Positions 15,600-19,728 of a DNA stretch of 64,000 nucleotides are shown here, one piece after another. A program made the translations under genes and the position numbers. The number at the start of each line of letters is the position of its first letter. Positions within the stretch are counted from its first letter, which is position 1. The notes beneath the pieces are model-generated. The model was given only the letters and a program-made list of their open reading frames with translations, ran no database searches and was not told where the DNA came from. The stretch comes from Corynebacterium jeikeium (GTDB taxonomy: Bacteria > Actinomycetota > Actinomycetes > Mycobacteriales > Mycobacteriaceae): positions 682,001 to 746,000 of the forward strand of contig NZ_CP063195.1 of the NCBI RefSeq assembly GCF_028609885.1. The letters are read 5' to 3'.

Positions 15600-15812
15600 C
15601 TACTGGGGAGTGGCGATTGTGAGGTAGTCGAACCACATCTTTTGCTTCAGGGCGAAGTCTGCCCCAAAGTCGTAATCGTTCGATTTTCCTACCTGACAAG
15701 TTAGAGTGCTGCCGTCCGAGCCCACGCGGCAGTCCATCGCATGAGTATCACCGGAATCGGGGTCAGTGACCGTGATGTTCGCATGGGGTACAGTACTACT
15801 TCGCTTTAGGGA
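15600..15812 (-). pseudogene. C-terminal remnant of the split lipoprotein gene
   Basis: A minus-strand frame with no start codon of its own; it is open from 15812 and stops with TAG at 15600-15602. It reads ..VPHANITVTDPDSGD, then MDCRVGSDGSTLTCQVG and ends WFDYLTIATPQ. This looks like the end of a secreted Cys-containing domain. Across an 18-bp repeat shared with 19234-19251 it continues, in the same frame, the lipoprotein fragment at 19226-19728 (..VTAVPQAN). I interpret both as one gene cut by an insertion. Confidence 0.7.
15776..15793 (+). repeat. Left 18-bp direct repeat of the island
   Basis: Matches 19234-19251 at 17 of 18 positions. In the minus-strand reading it encodes V-P-H-A-N of the lipoprotein C-terminal remnant. 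Confidence 0.8.
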
Positions 15813-15867
15813 TCAATGCAGCCCACGTAGGCGTACCAAATACCACTGATACGGAGATCTCAAAGGC

Positions 15868-16230
15868 ATGACCATAACCTCGGCCCAGCTTGACGCTGTC
15901 ATTGCCGCAACCCGCCACATCCCCGAATCAAACTTCACCGCCTACCGCGGTGGTTACCCCCAGGAGATCAGTACAGCCCTTATCGATGCTGTGTTCTCAA
16001 TCCAGGCCCAATACGACTCCGCTACACCTGGCAAAGGCGTCAGGAACCGCGTGCAGGCCTTCCGTTCCGCGAACCCGAGTGCGATTAATAATCTGTCGGC
16101 ACTGATCGACTTGGGCACTGAACACGTAGTGCAGATGATGAGGAAGGGAAAACCGGACGCCGCTTGAAAGCGGGGGCAGTACTTGAGGCTGCTGCCGGAT
16201 ACGTGGCTATCGGGGTGAACAATGCCACAC
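15868..16230 (+). pseudogene. Frameshifted gene of an uncharacterised actinobacterial family
   Basis: Starts with ATG at 15868 and reads 99 codons (MTITSAQLDAVIAATRHIPE..) to a TGA at 16165-16167. A coding-like continuation, KAGAVLEAAAGYVAIGVNNA, follows directly in another frame at 16164-16223, and after that no frame looks coding. This is best explained by a frameshift and loss of the 3' half. The N-terminus resembles proteins of about 200 aa that I recall from corynebacteria without a known function; that resemblance is from memory. It lies just inside the left island repeat. Confidence 0.5.
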
Positions 16231-16525
16231 GTCGATTGCCTCCGAGTATGCCTGGCTCGAGATATGAGGAAAGTCCGGGGAGTTCGCATCTCTTTCACGG
16301 CACGTCGCATCGCACCCCTCTCCCGGCCGCTCACCTACTCCATATATAAGAAGAACAGATATAGCGCTGAATAGACTGTCGACAAACAGCCATGCAGAAT
16401 AAGCTCAGGAACCTTCCTGCATATTTACAAGATTTCCCAACTATTCAACCATTTTTCATCCCCAAAGGAACTATCTTGCGCTAAGTCTATTTCTAACCAT
16501 TCACCACAGCGAAAGATGACCCAAC
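16231..16525 (+). other. Non-coding, AT-richer spacer before the LGFP/PLA2 gene
   Basis: No convincing coding frame on either strand beyond a 30-codon frame (16392-16484) of ordinary composition. The second half is clearly AT-richer than the chromosome around it and must hold the promoter of the gene at 16526; I see no clean -35/-10 pair. Confidence 0.4.
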
Positions 16526-18070
16526 ATGGCCAGACCATCTCGCACTATCACCACTCTCCTATTCGCCCTCACCCTCGGCATCGGCTTCACCCCCACCGTG
16601 CAAGCTCAGCCCGCACAACCACCAGCAGCCGCCAGCACACCAGGCGACAACAACGCCGATTACGTCGCACCCGGGCGCGAAGATCTCGAACCGGCAGAAC
16701 CAGGCTTCGACGACAACAACGTAGATAACCAAGCGGGCAAAAACTGGCACCCCACCATCAACCCCAAAAGCAAAGTCATCCCAGGACAGATGCGTTCCGA
16801 TAAAGAAGAAATCCCTGGTGGTTTCACCAAGGAACAGGCCAACCGCGCCGAGGTCCAAGAAGCTAAAGAACAGGCCACACAGGCACGCTCTGGGATCCAG
16901 ACTTTTGCCGTTGTCGATACGTGCCGAACGTACTGGCCCAGCCCGTTCAAGGTCTGCGGAAAGATCCGCGAAAAGTACGACTCCCTCGGCGGACCACAAA
17001 GCTTCCTAACCTGGCCAAAATCCGACGAACTGAAGGTTCCCGATGGTGTGGGGCGCCGCAACGAGTTCGTCAACGGATTCATCTACTGGCACCCTAATAC
17101 CGGTGCTCATTCGATCACCACGCACTTCTCTGTCGCTTGGGCACGTATCGGATGGGAACGTGGACCGCTAGGTTACCCCACCACTGACGAATTTGGCCTG
17201 TCTGGCAGTATCGGGCGTAAGCAATCCTTCGAGCACGGCCACATCTACGGCTCATTGGCAGGACTGGCCACAATCCACGGGGCGATCTACGACAAGTGGG
17301 TGCAAACCGGGGCAGAAAAAGGCCCGCTTGGCTACCCCACAGGTGATGAAACAAAAACCCCTGACGGCATCGGACGGTTCCATAACTTCACCCGCGGGAA
17401 GATCTACTGGCACCCACAATATGGAGCACATAGCGTTGTGGGAGCACAGCAGTTGATCTGGGAAGCGAGCGGACGTGAGCAAGGTATCTATGGATACCCT
17501 ACTTCCGAACAATTTTTGGACAGTAAAGGAAATGTTGTTCAAAACTTCTCAAAAAGTCGACTGGATCTAAGTGTGTACCTAGGAAACACCGCCACTACAC
17601 GAGTGGGAGAGAAGCTACTTAACGATAAACTAGTTGCTCTTTATCCTGAGTTGGCCAGTGGGGGGAATGTGGAGATAGGCGCACGAAATGTCCTTGTTGC
17701 CAATGCAGAAACTAGAGATTCTCGTGTAGTGGGCGGAAAAGAGGTAGTGACAATCATTCCAGTCCCTAGCTACTATTTATATGACTGGCATAGAGGAAAT
17801 CTAAACGACTACTGCACATCTAGCCCTGATGAATACTCTGGAGGAGTAAAGAATGCAGATTTCAGAGGACCTTGCGCTATTCATGATATGTGCTACCAGG
17901 CTGTTTCTCGAGGAGAAAGGACCCAATCATTTTGTGATGAAAGGTTCCACTCGCAGCTATTGCTAACCTGCGAAGGTGTATACTCACGATACAGTGTAGA
18001 TAGGTATCGGTGCGGAAATGTAGCCCAGGTTTACTATCAAGTCGTAAAGAATGCTCCTCATGATTTTTAA
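16526..18070 (+). CDS. Secreted LGFP-repeat protein with C-terminal phospholipase A2-like domain
   Basis: Signal peptide at residues 1-27 with cleavage after VQA. A Pro/Asp-rich linker follows, then four LGFP repeats (~150-355: SLGGPQSFLTWP, GWERGPLGYPTTDEF, GPLGYPTGDET, GIYGYPTSEQF), a module found in actinobacterial cell-wall-associated proteins. The C-terminal ~165 residues have the phospholipase A2 active-site motif CAIHDMCYQA (~residues 450-459, catalytic His-Asp pair) and several Cys that could form disulphides. It probably hydrolyses phospholipids outside the cell while held in the wall. 514 aa. The 5' part has chromosomal composition; from ~17,500 the DNA becomes AT-rich, so the enzyme domain looks acquired. 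The neighbour 18074 starts 3 bp after the stop. Confidence 0.85.
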   Translation: MARPSRTITTLLFALTLGIGFTPTVQAQPAQPPAAASTPGDNNADYVAPGREDLEPAEPGFDDNNVDNQAGKNWHPTINPKSKVIPGQMRSDKEEIPGGFTKEQANRAEVQEAKEQATQARSGIQTFAVVDTCRTYWPSPFKVCGKIREKYDSLGGPQSFLTWPKSDELKVPDGVGRRNEFVNGFIYWHPNTGAHSITTHFSVAWARIGWERGPLGYPTTDEFGLSGSIGRKQSFEHGHIYGSLAGLATIHGAIYDKWVQTGAEKGPLGYPTGDETKTPDGIGRFHNFTRGKIYWHPQYGAHSVVGAQQLIWEASGREQGIYGYPTSEQFLDSKGNVVQNFSKSRLDLSVYLGNTATTRVGEKLLNDKLVALYPELASGGNVEIGARNVLVANAETRDSRVVGGKEVVTIIPVPSYYLYDWHRGNLNDYCTSSPDEYSGGVKNADFRGPCAIHDMCYQAVSRGERTQSFCDERFHSQLLLTCEGVYSRYSVDRYRCGNVAQVYYQVVKNAPHDF

Positions 18071-18073
18071 GGA

Positions 18074-18472
18074 ATGATTAATTTGATAAAGCGCATTCTT
18101 TTCTTGCCGATCATTGAACTTATTCTTATTTCTCTGTCCTTGTTTGGCTTATCAAGATGGATCATAATGCCTTTTTATGACCCATCTTACGGTACGGAGA
18201 GCCAGTTTTTTGATTCCTTCAATCAATCTCTTGTAATAATCTCGGCAATTTCTGCCCTTTTGGGCATTTTTCTTGCGGTAATTGTCCCAAATAAAATCGC
18301 TACAGGGTGGGCGATCATTGCCGCTGGAGCGGTGGCTGTCGTACTTGTTAAAAGCATGGAAGACAATAGCCCTAACATTGGCGGAGGTCTCATATTTTTA
18401 GTCGGCGAAGTCCTCCTGTTGGCAGGGTTCTCTATGGTCGTTAGGTTCTATTTGATTTCTCTATTAAGATAA
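18074..18472 (+). CDS. Small AT-rich membrane protein downstream of the phospholipase gene
   Basis: Unrecognised 132-aa protein with four predicted membrane helices (~10-32, ~52-72, ~76-93, ~103-128) and little soluble sequence. The ATG lies 3 bp after the PLA2 stop and its AAGGA overlaps that stop, so it is almost certainly co-translated. It shares the AT-rich composition of the PLA2 domain, which suggests they arrived together. A protective (immunity-like) role for the producer's membrane is a hypothesis from gene order only. Confidence 0.7.
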   Translation: MINLIKRILFLPIIELILISLSLFGLSRWIIMPFYDPSYGTESQFFDSFNQSLVIISAISALLGIFLAVIVPNKIATGWAIIAAGAVAVVLVKSMEDNSPNIGGGLIFLVGEVLLLAGFSMVVRFYLISLLR

Positions 18473-18552
18473 TCCATACTGTTTGACTACTGCTATAATA
18501 GGTTAGATTATCCAAGTCCGCTATCGATATGATCGACCTGACCATGGTCTCC

Positions 18553-19191
18553 TTAAGCCAAATCCGTAGTTCGCGTTGGCTTGCCAAAGCGGCTATACAG
18601 CGTTGTTCGCCCTACCTTCAAAACGTCGTGCGACTTCCGCTTTCGGTACACCAGCATCCACCCATGCATGCGCCTGATCAACCTGCTCCGCAGTAAGCGC
18701 GCGGGCACGACCTTTGTACACCCCTCGCTCGAGCAATCCCCTCGGCTTGACGCTCCCTAATGATTGAGCGTTCAAATTCCGCCACCGAACCCAGCAGCCC
18801 GAGCATCAGCTTGGCGATCGGGGTGGAGTCCTTCGAGTAGATCTGTCCCTCCTTGAGGAACTCCACCGACACCCCTTTGCTGACTAACTCGTCAACAATG
18901 GCATACAGATCCGTTAATGACCGCGCGCACCGATCCATCGACGGCGACCACAAGCTGATCCCCCGCACGGACATACCGCATCGCTTCATCAAGACTAGGC
19001 CACTTTCGTGAACCACCACTAGCCCTATCTGTGTAATAGGTGAAGACCTTCTCCGCCTTGAGTTGCTCAATCTGGCGATCAAGATTCTGATCTTTCGAGC
19101 TCACCCGGGCATAACCCACCTTTTGCCCCGAGATCACACCCAACTGTTCCGTGATCTCTAGAGGCAGTGACGGTTCTGTTCCGTTAGTCAT
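18553..19191 (-). pseudogene. Serine recombinase (Tn3 resolvase/invertase type), multiply frameshifted
   Basis: Pieces of one resolvase run consecutively on the minus strand in different frames. The catalytic N-terminus is QKVGYARVSSKDQNLDRQIEQL (Ser in RVSS) and DQLVVAVDGSVR. The E-helix region follows (SLTDLYAIVDELVSKGVSVEFLKEG, then AEFERSIIRERQAEGIARARG). The DNA-binding helix-turn-helix is split between YKGRARALTAEQVDQ..PKAEVARRF and VGRTTLYSRFGKP, ending at a TAA (18553-18555). At least three frame breaks are needed (near 18930, 18710 and 18620), so no active enzyme is made. It may have mobilised the surrounding island. Confidence 0.85.
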
Positions 19192-19225
19192 GGAGCCAAC
19201 CCTAGCCAACAGGAAATCTTGTCAT

Positions 19226-19728
19226 TCACAAAGTGTTCGCTTGGGGTACAGCCGTCACGTTAGGGTTGCTAGACCTATAGGCGTAGGTGGGTTTCAATGC
19301 CTCTGCGTAAATCGCATCAGCGAACTCGCATGATGTTTGGAGAGGAACGCTGATCTCAGCGCCATTTGCAGTGACCCCGCAGTCATTTCGCGGGTAAGCA
19401 CTTCCCCGTTGGAAGAGGGACGTTTGCGTTTGCCTCGCGTCGGCTCAGCTGCGCGGTTGTTGCTTTCTGTGGCAGAGCTGTGACCGGAACCGTGGTTTGA
19501 AGCCGGTGGGGTGGGGTTGGGGCCGGACTTCTTGGTGGACTTAGCGCGTGTGGTTTCGTCTGCCTTGTCGTCCTTTTTAGAGGCCTCACCCTTAGCTGCC
19601 GAATTCTGCTGTGCAGAGGCGTTGGCGGCGCTGCCTGAGTCGGCGGCATCGTTGGAATCTTCAGATCCGCAGGCGCTTAACCCCATCGTGGCGACGGTGA
19701 GTGGAGCTAGGGCAGATATACGCTTCAT
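19226..19728 (-). pseudogene. Lipoprotein gene, frameshifted and truncated by the island
   Basis: Starts MKRISALAPLTVATMGLSAC, a signal peptide with lipobox LSAC for lipidation at the Cys, followed by an Asp/Ser/Ala/Lys-rich linker. This frame ends at 19294. Before that, coding sense moves to another frame (RNDCGVTANGAEI, then TSCEFADAIYAEALKPTYAY) and runs to a TGA at 19226-19228 just inside the right island repeat. So there is a frameshift at about 19380-19450 plus truncation. The missing C-terminus matches the remnant at 15600-15812. Function unknown. Confidence 0.72.
19234..19251 (+). repeat. Right 18-bp direct repeat of the island
   Basis: Matches 15776-15793 with one mismatch (A/T). 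In the minus-strand reading it encodes V-P-Q-A-N of the lipoprotein N-terminal part. Confidence 0.8.

Follow-up and report, generated by a model that had tools for sequence, protein, structure and literature searches.

A 3.46-kb island that splits a Corynebacterium jeikeium lipoprotein gene: a likely route of entry through the crossover site of a plasmid-type serine resolvase

How a 3.46-kb island bounded by an 18-bp direct repeat came to lie inside a lipoprotein gene is the question raised by a 64,000-nucleotide stretch of Corynebacterium jeikeium DNA (hereafter the window), which covers positions 682001-746000 of a 2.52-Mb single-contig genome (NZ_CP063195.1). The minus-strand gene is split in two, with its 5' part at 19252-19728 and its 3' part, which includes the stop codon and is read for 63 codons from 15791, at 15600-15793. 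Between the halves the plus strand holds a fragment of another gene, an LGFP/phospholipase A2 gene and a small membrane open reading frame (ORF), and the minus strand a broken serine resolvase. The initial annotation of this DNA left two explanations side by side, site-specific integration and an unfamiliar mode of transposition. The former is supported by relatives that have a continuous gene with one copy of the repeat, and by the repeat corresponding to half of a res crossover site; the latter finds no support. We consider it likely that a small serine resolvase of the plasmid type joined its crossover site, site I, to a chromosomal look-alike within the lipoprotein gene.

The two copies of the repeat, at 15776-15793 (TGTTCGCATGGGGTACAG) and 19234-19251 (TGTTCGCTTGGGGTACAG), lie 3458 bases apart and are identical at 17 of 18 positions, in shared blocks of 10 and 7 bp. 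Their minus-strand translations are V-P-H-A-N and V-P-Q-A-N, in frame with the C-terminal portion of the lipoprotein, which confirms the initial description. By itself the repeat is just moderately unusual, because the window contains nine pairs of 18-mers with at most one mismatch at a distance of 0.5-6 kb (in five separate places), against a mean of 1.1 and a maximum of 7 in 40 shuffles. Its meaning comes from its place: it stands at both breaks of one gene, occurs once at the empty site and occupies the res position of a resolvase.

A search with the C-terminal lipoprotein piece across 201 Corynebacterium genomes, one per species, gave matches in 21, the own genome included; the three close ones, from other species, were examined and 17 weaker ones (E 6e-9 to 8e-4) were left out. 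In genomes G075, G078 and G133 the lipoprotein is an open frame of 228-243 aa, with 92, 92 and 87% protein identity. At loci L008, L009 and L010 the window's left and right flanks align contiguously (84-93% DNA identity) with a single copy of the repeat region, CTCTACCCCGTGCGAGCA in L009, and without any match to the island interior. The three close relatives thus show the continuous gene with one repeat copy that the initial annotation anticipated, and neither two separate full genes nor an empty site devoid of the repeat. The split of the gene by the island is borne out, with one correction: the right fragment carries a frameshift of its own, upstream of the right repeat and missing from the three close relatives, which leaves a start-codon ORF at 19294-19728 outside the C-terminal frame. 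The foreign composition of the cargo is likewise visible, the island having a G+C content of 0.513 and the 5-kb flanks on either side 0.617 and 0.623.

The recombinase pseudogene (18593-19191, minus strand) is present as described, with two frame breaks and its C-terminal end lost. PF00239 is recognised in two separate pieces and PF02796 stays below the cut-off, and tblastn aligns three overlapping pieces in different frames to residues 1-75, 58-148 and 138-175 of the intact resolvase of the C. doosanense plasmid pCdoos1. An intact relative, at locus L003, matches both PF00239 (E 1.2e-39) and PF02796 (E 1.8e-7), so the family has a catalytic domain and a C-terminal helix-turn-helix. Among resolved structures the best match is DNA-invertase 4m6f (E 2.2e-26), with gamma-delta resolvase 1zr2 (E 3.4e-25) and Sin 5c35 (E 6.9e-16) also found. 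In a search of plasmid DNA the island resolvase reached up to 86% identity to Corynebacterium 'recombinase family proteins', and relatives (E up to 1e-20) occur in 130 of 242 genomes of the genus.

Directly upstream of the resolvase in plasmids pCJ84 and pGP108 (C. stationis), in a C. qintianiae plasmid and in many chromosomes stands the motif GTACACCCCAAGCGAACA or a near-copy. In the three plasmids it is followed by a spacer and then, as judged by eye, by two further inverted arms that lie across the start codon. Both arms of the motif are good in pGP108 (GTTCGTCTGGGGT-AC-ACCCCAAAAGAAC); hairpin folding of this site gave no excess over chance (z -0.33). The layout has the appearance of a res crossover site (site I) with an accessory site, names taken over from Tn3-type systems for an arrangement read by eye. 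The right repeat copy (minus strand) would then be the resolvase-side arm of res site I of the island's own resolvase family, with its putative centre GT at 19248-19249. A candidate site II, recognised by eye from the upstream sequences of relatives, consists of inverted arms across the resolvase start codon (19177-19211, minus strand). The right copy has a position-weight score of 36.1, with 6.8 at the next best place in the window. A 14-base arm with at most one mismatch occurs at three places in the own genome, two of which are the island junctions. The left copy (minus strand) matches ACCCCAAGCGAACA at 13 of 14 positions and would represent a chromosomal look-alike beside the far end of the element.

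With 40 fetched loci, four plasmids and the window, 45 loci were compared; the resolvase-side arm is recognisable in 42 of them and lies directly upstream of the resolvase in 40. For the measurement of conservation the three loci without a recognisable site (L077, L095 and L096; best match <11/18) and five redundant ones were removed, which left 37, the near-identical flanks of L085 and L086 both being kept. On the resolvase side, positions 0 to 17 show a conservation of 1.46 bits per base; the value is 0.26 at -12 to -1 and 0.06, as in random sequence, at -60 to -14, and the drop comes no more than a few bases from the core GGGTACACC. A comparison of pairs among 51 rows, redundant ones included, yielded 89 and 12 pairs under two filters. 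In the 89 pairs, which are not independent, near-identical resolvase sides are joined to different flanks and identity stops between -8 and +4 (the ten pairs ending at +4 all involve the window and the ten ending at +2 all involve L087); in the 12 pairs, from four flank groups, the same flank is joined to different resolvase sides and the first difference falls at +6 to +8. These switch points bracket the site centre. Because conservation ends at the core and same-flank pairs switch at the next few bases, we read the sequence break as the crossover point.

Hybrid sites that link one flank to different resolvases are present across replicons. An ABC-protein flank is common, at 98.8% identity, to pA505 from C. 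jeikeium and pLEW279b from a Corynebacterium sp., two plasmids with different resolvases. A single TetR flank adjoins half-sites of three types: those of L085/L086/L088, of genome G002 (L098) and of plasmid pUMB2355A_1. The maker of these hybrids may well be the resolvase. A further gene, of 291 aa, is cut in genome G155 exactly at GGAGTATA, where a half-site begins; G021 and G020, whose loci are 99.8% identical to each other, have it whole. The centre of this half-site, AT, is also that of the target sequence.

Some observations made along the way concern similar loci. The own genome has a second half-site, GGGGTACACCCCAAACGAACAG, at C1:639436 (L144 position 1937), with an ABC-protein fragment on one side and on the other an IS481-like transposase gene; by eye, the flank there resembles that of pA505. 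In L084-L092 a resolvase matching only to residue 117 recurs in nine genomes with varied flanks, and at L085, the one locus of this kind scanned, SSB and DUF4192 genes come after it. When the fetched loci were scanned at a threshold of at least 13/18, there were, besides the resolvase sites, scattered matches of 13-14 of 18, and L065, L075, L078 and L148 had no further good half-sites. Several candidates for elements with two ends were rejected: those in L085, L087 and L088 run up to a tRNA-Met gene as their end and seem to belong to larger islands, and L067 has one end only. L075 was discarded as a case of a cut gene, since the chromosomal gene seems to stop before the site.

The events at the lipoprotein gene can be pictured as follows. 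A resolvase, supplied by a circular element itself or by another copy in the cell, would have cut site I of the circle together with the look-alike in the lipoprotein gene, which would have contained the stretch ACCCCATGCGAACA, and strand exchange would have opened the circle into the gene. The repeat would thereby be the resolvase-side arm of site I twice over, within the island at the right and as a chance chromosomal resemblance at the left. At the right junction the order would be chromosome, centre, resolvase-side arm, with everything through the centre coming from the chromosome and the following arm from the element. At the left it would be the far side of the element, centre, chromosome, with a chromosomal arm. 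A left arm from the chromosome and a right arm from the element would account for the one mismatch between the copies. Later deletion, recombination and frameshifts may then have produced the 3.46-kb insert with its dead resolvase. Catalysis by the resolvase, a circular donor and subsequent decay are the steps that we infer here.

Several points weigh against this explanation. The window resolvase is broken and incapable of acting now. The empty site rests on three relatives of other species, none of the same species, and their target resembles the window copies less well (15/18 to the left and 14/18 to the right copy in L009; 13/18 in L010 and 12/18 in L008 to the right copy). Arm-like sequence is not rare, since at up to two mismatches the own genome has 13 such places, and 10 that fit the reversed pattern. 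In 5 of the 45 loci no half-site stands immediately before the resolvase: it was not found in L077, L095 and L096, lies at the far contig end in L057, and is 3.5 kb from the resolvase gene in pCdoos1, which carries the nearest plasmid relative of the island resolvase by DNA. Nine further plasmids carry the motif (12-16 of 18) in six cases and another motif in three (pK64, pB85766 and pKW4). The far arm agrees with the mirror image at 4.83 of 12 positions over 36 loci (L086 being left out), a value reached by 60 of 5000 shuffled mirrors, and its outer nine positions are at chance level (1022 of 5000 shuffles). Both window junctions have the centre CTGT-ACCCC, where A stands at the first centre base in 35 of 37 loci and C at the second in 29 of 37; with non-matching centre bases, serine recombinases gave mere traces of recombinants according to the excerpted text of PMC11607074, so the donor site would already have had GT, or a rare mismatched event would have been fixed. 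Among the loci examined, a second chromosomal locus with both junctions was not found, nor was the remainder of the cut gene in G155, save for a 75% match elsewhere.

The same facts have to be held against other histories. The shared blocks of 10 and 7 bp, and a window core that differs from the usual one, would suit recombination assisted by homology or microhomology, in which a plasmid with a half-site met a similar chromosomal stretch by chance and no resolvase took part; however, many unrelated contexts break at the same few bases, with hardly any resemblance past the core, and 18 bp is generally very short for homologous recombination, which makes this improbable in our judgement. An alternative in two steps, to which we give still less credence, is that the resolvase module joined other mobile DNA through its site elsewhere and that the lipoprotein gene afterwards received a larger island, which deletions cut down, with later conversion giving the left copy its form. 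The composite nature of the island speaks for such a history, as does the finding that in several loci the DNA beyond the site is common to several genomes or plasmids and looks mobile itself; against it, both junctions lie exactly at the repeat in the lipoprotein gene, with flanks contiguous in relatives.

Transposons of the Tn3 family have a transposase, TnpA, inverted repeats of about 38 bp and a 5-bp target duplication, and the island resolvase is of the family that they carry. The repeat might thus be imagined as a target duplication left by a Tn3-like or other transposon that lost its transposase and kept its resolvase. We hold this to be very improbable: the right copy lies within the res site of the resolvase itself and persists, inside the element, at loci with other flanks, no transposase match was found among the island ORFs and pieces scanned, none of the 16 inverted-repeat pairs listed is located at the ends of the island, and an 18-bp direct repeat stands in place of the expected structure. 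A target duplication of the Tn3 or insertion sequence (IS) type was rejected on the position of the right copy within the resolvase's own site.

Textbooks present resolvases as enzymes confined to recombination inside a single molecule. A wider proposal, which we put forward tentatively and rate at a little under even chances, is that the plasmid-type serine resolvases of Corynebacterium form a genus-wide shuffling system with a near-minimal core (about GGGTACACC), fusing cargo to plasmids, islands and look-alike chromosomal genes. If true, a resolution enzyme works as a low-specificity integrase, the core-break junctions across the genus would be a natural record of resolvase activity both intermolecular and off-target, and they would provide a sequence rule for locating cargo junctions in Corynebacterium plasmids and islands that have no integrase.

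Comparable systems exist. Kholodii reportedly set out in 2001, in 'The shuffling function of resolvases', a resolvase-driven shuffling of DNA at res sites. As far as partial accounts of that work go, the likeness lies in resolvases that act on res sites not their own and in the exchange of DNA between plasmids, and the difference in that in Corynebacterium some of the partners are chromosomal genes and no res sites. The pdif modules of Acinetobacter plasmids, whose XerC/XerD sites are 28 bp long, are likewise cargo modules swapped between plasmids at short recombination sites; there, to judge from abridged descriptions, host tyrosine recombinases XerC and XerD are used, whereas the island has an element-borne serine resolvase. 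Integrative mobilizable elements also produce short direct repeats when a circle enters the chromosome, but no tyrosine or large serine integrase was found among the seven island ORFs and pieces scanned, where loss through decay is possible. With Tn3/gamma-delta and Sin the Corynebacterium resolvases share the sequence family, a crossover site with inverted arms and a second site over the gene start. These systems channel recombination to resolution within one molecule in the portion of PMC9943657 available, in contrast to the Corynebacterium junctions, which are between molecules and at which just two binding sites were recognised, by eye. Resolvases acting on foreign res sites and exchanging DNA between plasmids are described in excerpts of a review (PMC9501444), which cites Kholodii's paper, and the presumed res-hunting insertions of SGI1 appear from extracts of PMC12217951 to be a different process, of transposition. 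Titles and abstract openings yielded no published account of such integration by a resolvase or at res sites in Corynebacterium. The enzyme class and shuffling by resolvases are already known; new are the genus-wide core junctions and the probable use of a half-site look-alike to enter a chromosomal gene.

In its contents the island is composite and decayed. The cargo consists of an LGFP-repeat protein with a prokaryotic phospholipase A2 domain (16526-18070, plus strand; PF08310 E 4e-53, PF09056 29.7 bits versus a cut-off of 29.4), probably secreted to judge from its N-terminus, and, directly 3' of it, a small hydrophobic ORF, probably of a membrane protein (18074-18472, plus strand), which is kept in genome G033. 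From 16222 to its right end the island is colinear with a G033 locus whose flanks differ and which has a TrwC-type relaxase fragment about 0.8 kb away. In 100-base bins the two are 82-98% identical as far as 17321 and 97-100% identical between 17322 and about 18850, after which identity drops to 60-74% within the resolvase gene. They have in common the cargo and the 3' part of the resolvase, down to its out-of-frame end, and differ in their 5' parts and sites. A second exchange point besides the site core may be seen there, at about 18850 of the window and 7770 of L143, where identity passes from about 99% to about 68% inside the resolvase gene.

The left part (15829-16226, plus strand) is a truncated, out-of-frame piece of a 219-aa gene that is intact in genome G116 (88% DNA identity to L145 3154-3813; shorter matches in L146 and L147). 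Its junction with the phospholipase module falls at 16222-16226, similarity to G033 beginning at 16222 and similarity to G116 ending at 16226. The present insert is the remnant of one or more mobile pieces, probably with a mobilizable plasmid among them. Of a single element with defined ends, as first proposed, the location of both junctions at the repeat remains, and the unity of what lies between does not, the phospholipase module being found in G033 too. The expectation of the same cargo with similar repeats elsewhere holds for the right end of the G033 module, at the same kind of site, and not for the flanks, which are others.

A contig scan found 13 relatives of the LGFP/phospholipase A2 protein, 11 of them in Corynebacterium records; a resolvase fragment is present at one of the 13 loci and a half-site with up to three mismatches at none. 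LGFP/phospholipase matches within a few kb of a resolvase of the island type occur in G191 (C1:779148-783416) and G042 (C1:190448-196663), a recurring link of cargo and resolvase. As in the window (16526-18472), a small membrane-protein gene, of different sequence, comes only a few bases after the phospholipase A2 gene in a C. gallistercoris metagenome-assembled genome (L150 637-2112 and just beyond); C. striatum (L152) has in its place a 197-aa ORF whose start resembles that of a lipoprotein. The two proteins could possibly be a pair of enzyme and self-protection. The 219-aa gene (L145 3154-3813) had no Pfam or NCBIfam match at E 0.01; in G116 it adjoins an apparent long CRISPR-like repeat array (L145 3910-6834), as seen from repeated ORF translations. 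In G109 (L146, about 3893) and G221 (L147, about 3762) similarity to this gene stops some 10 bases before another res half-site.

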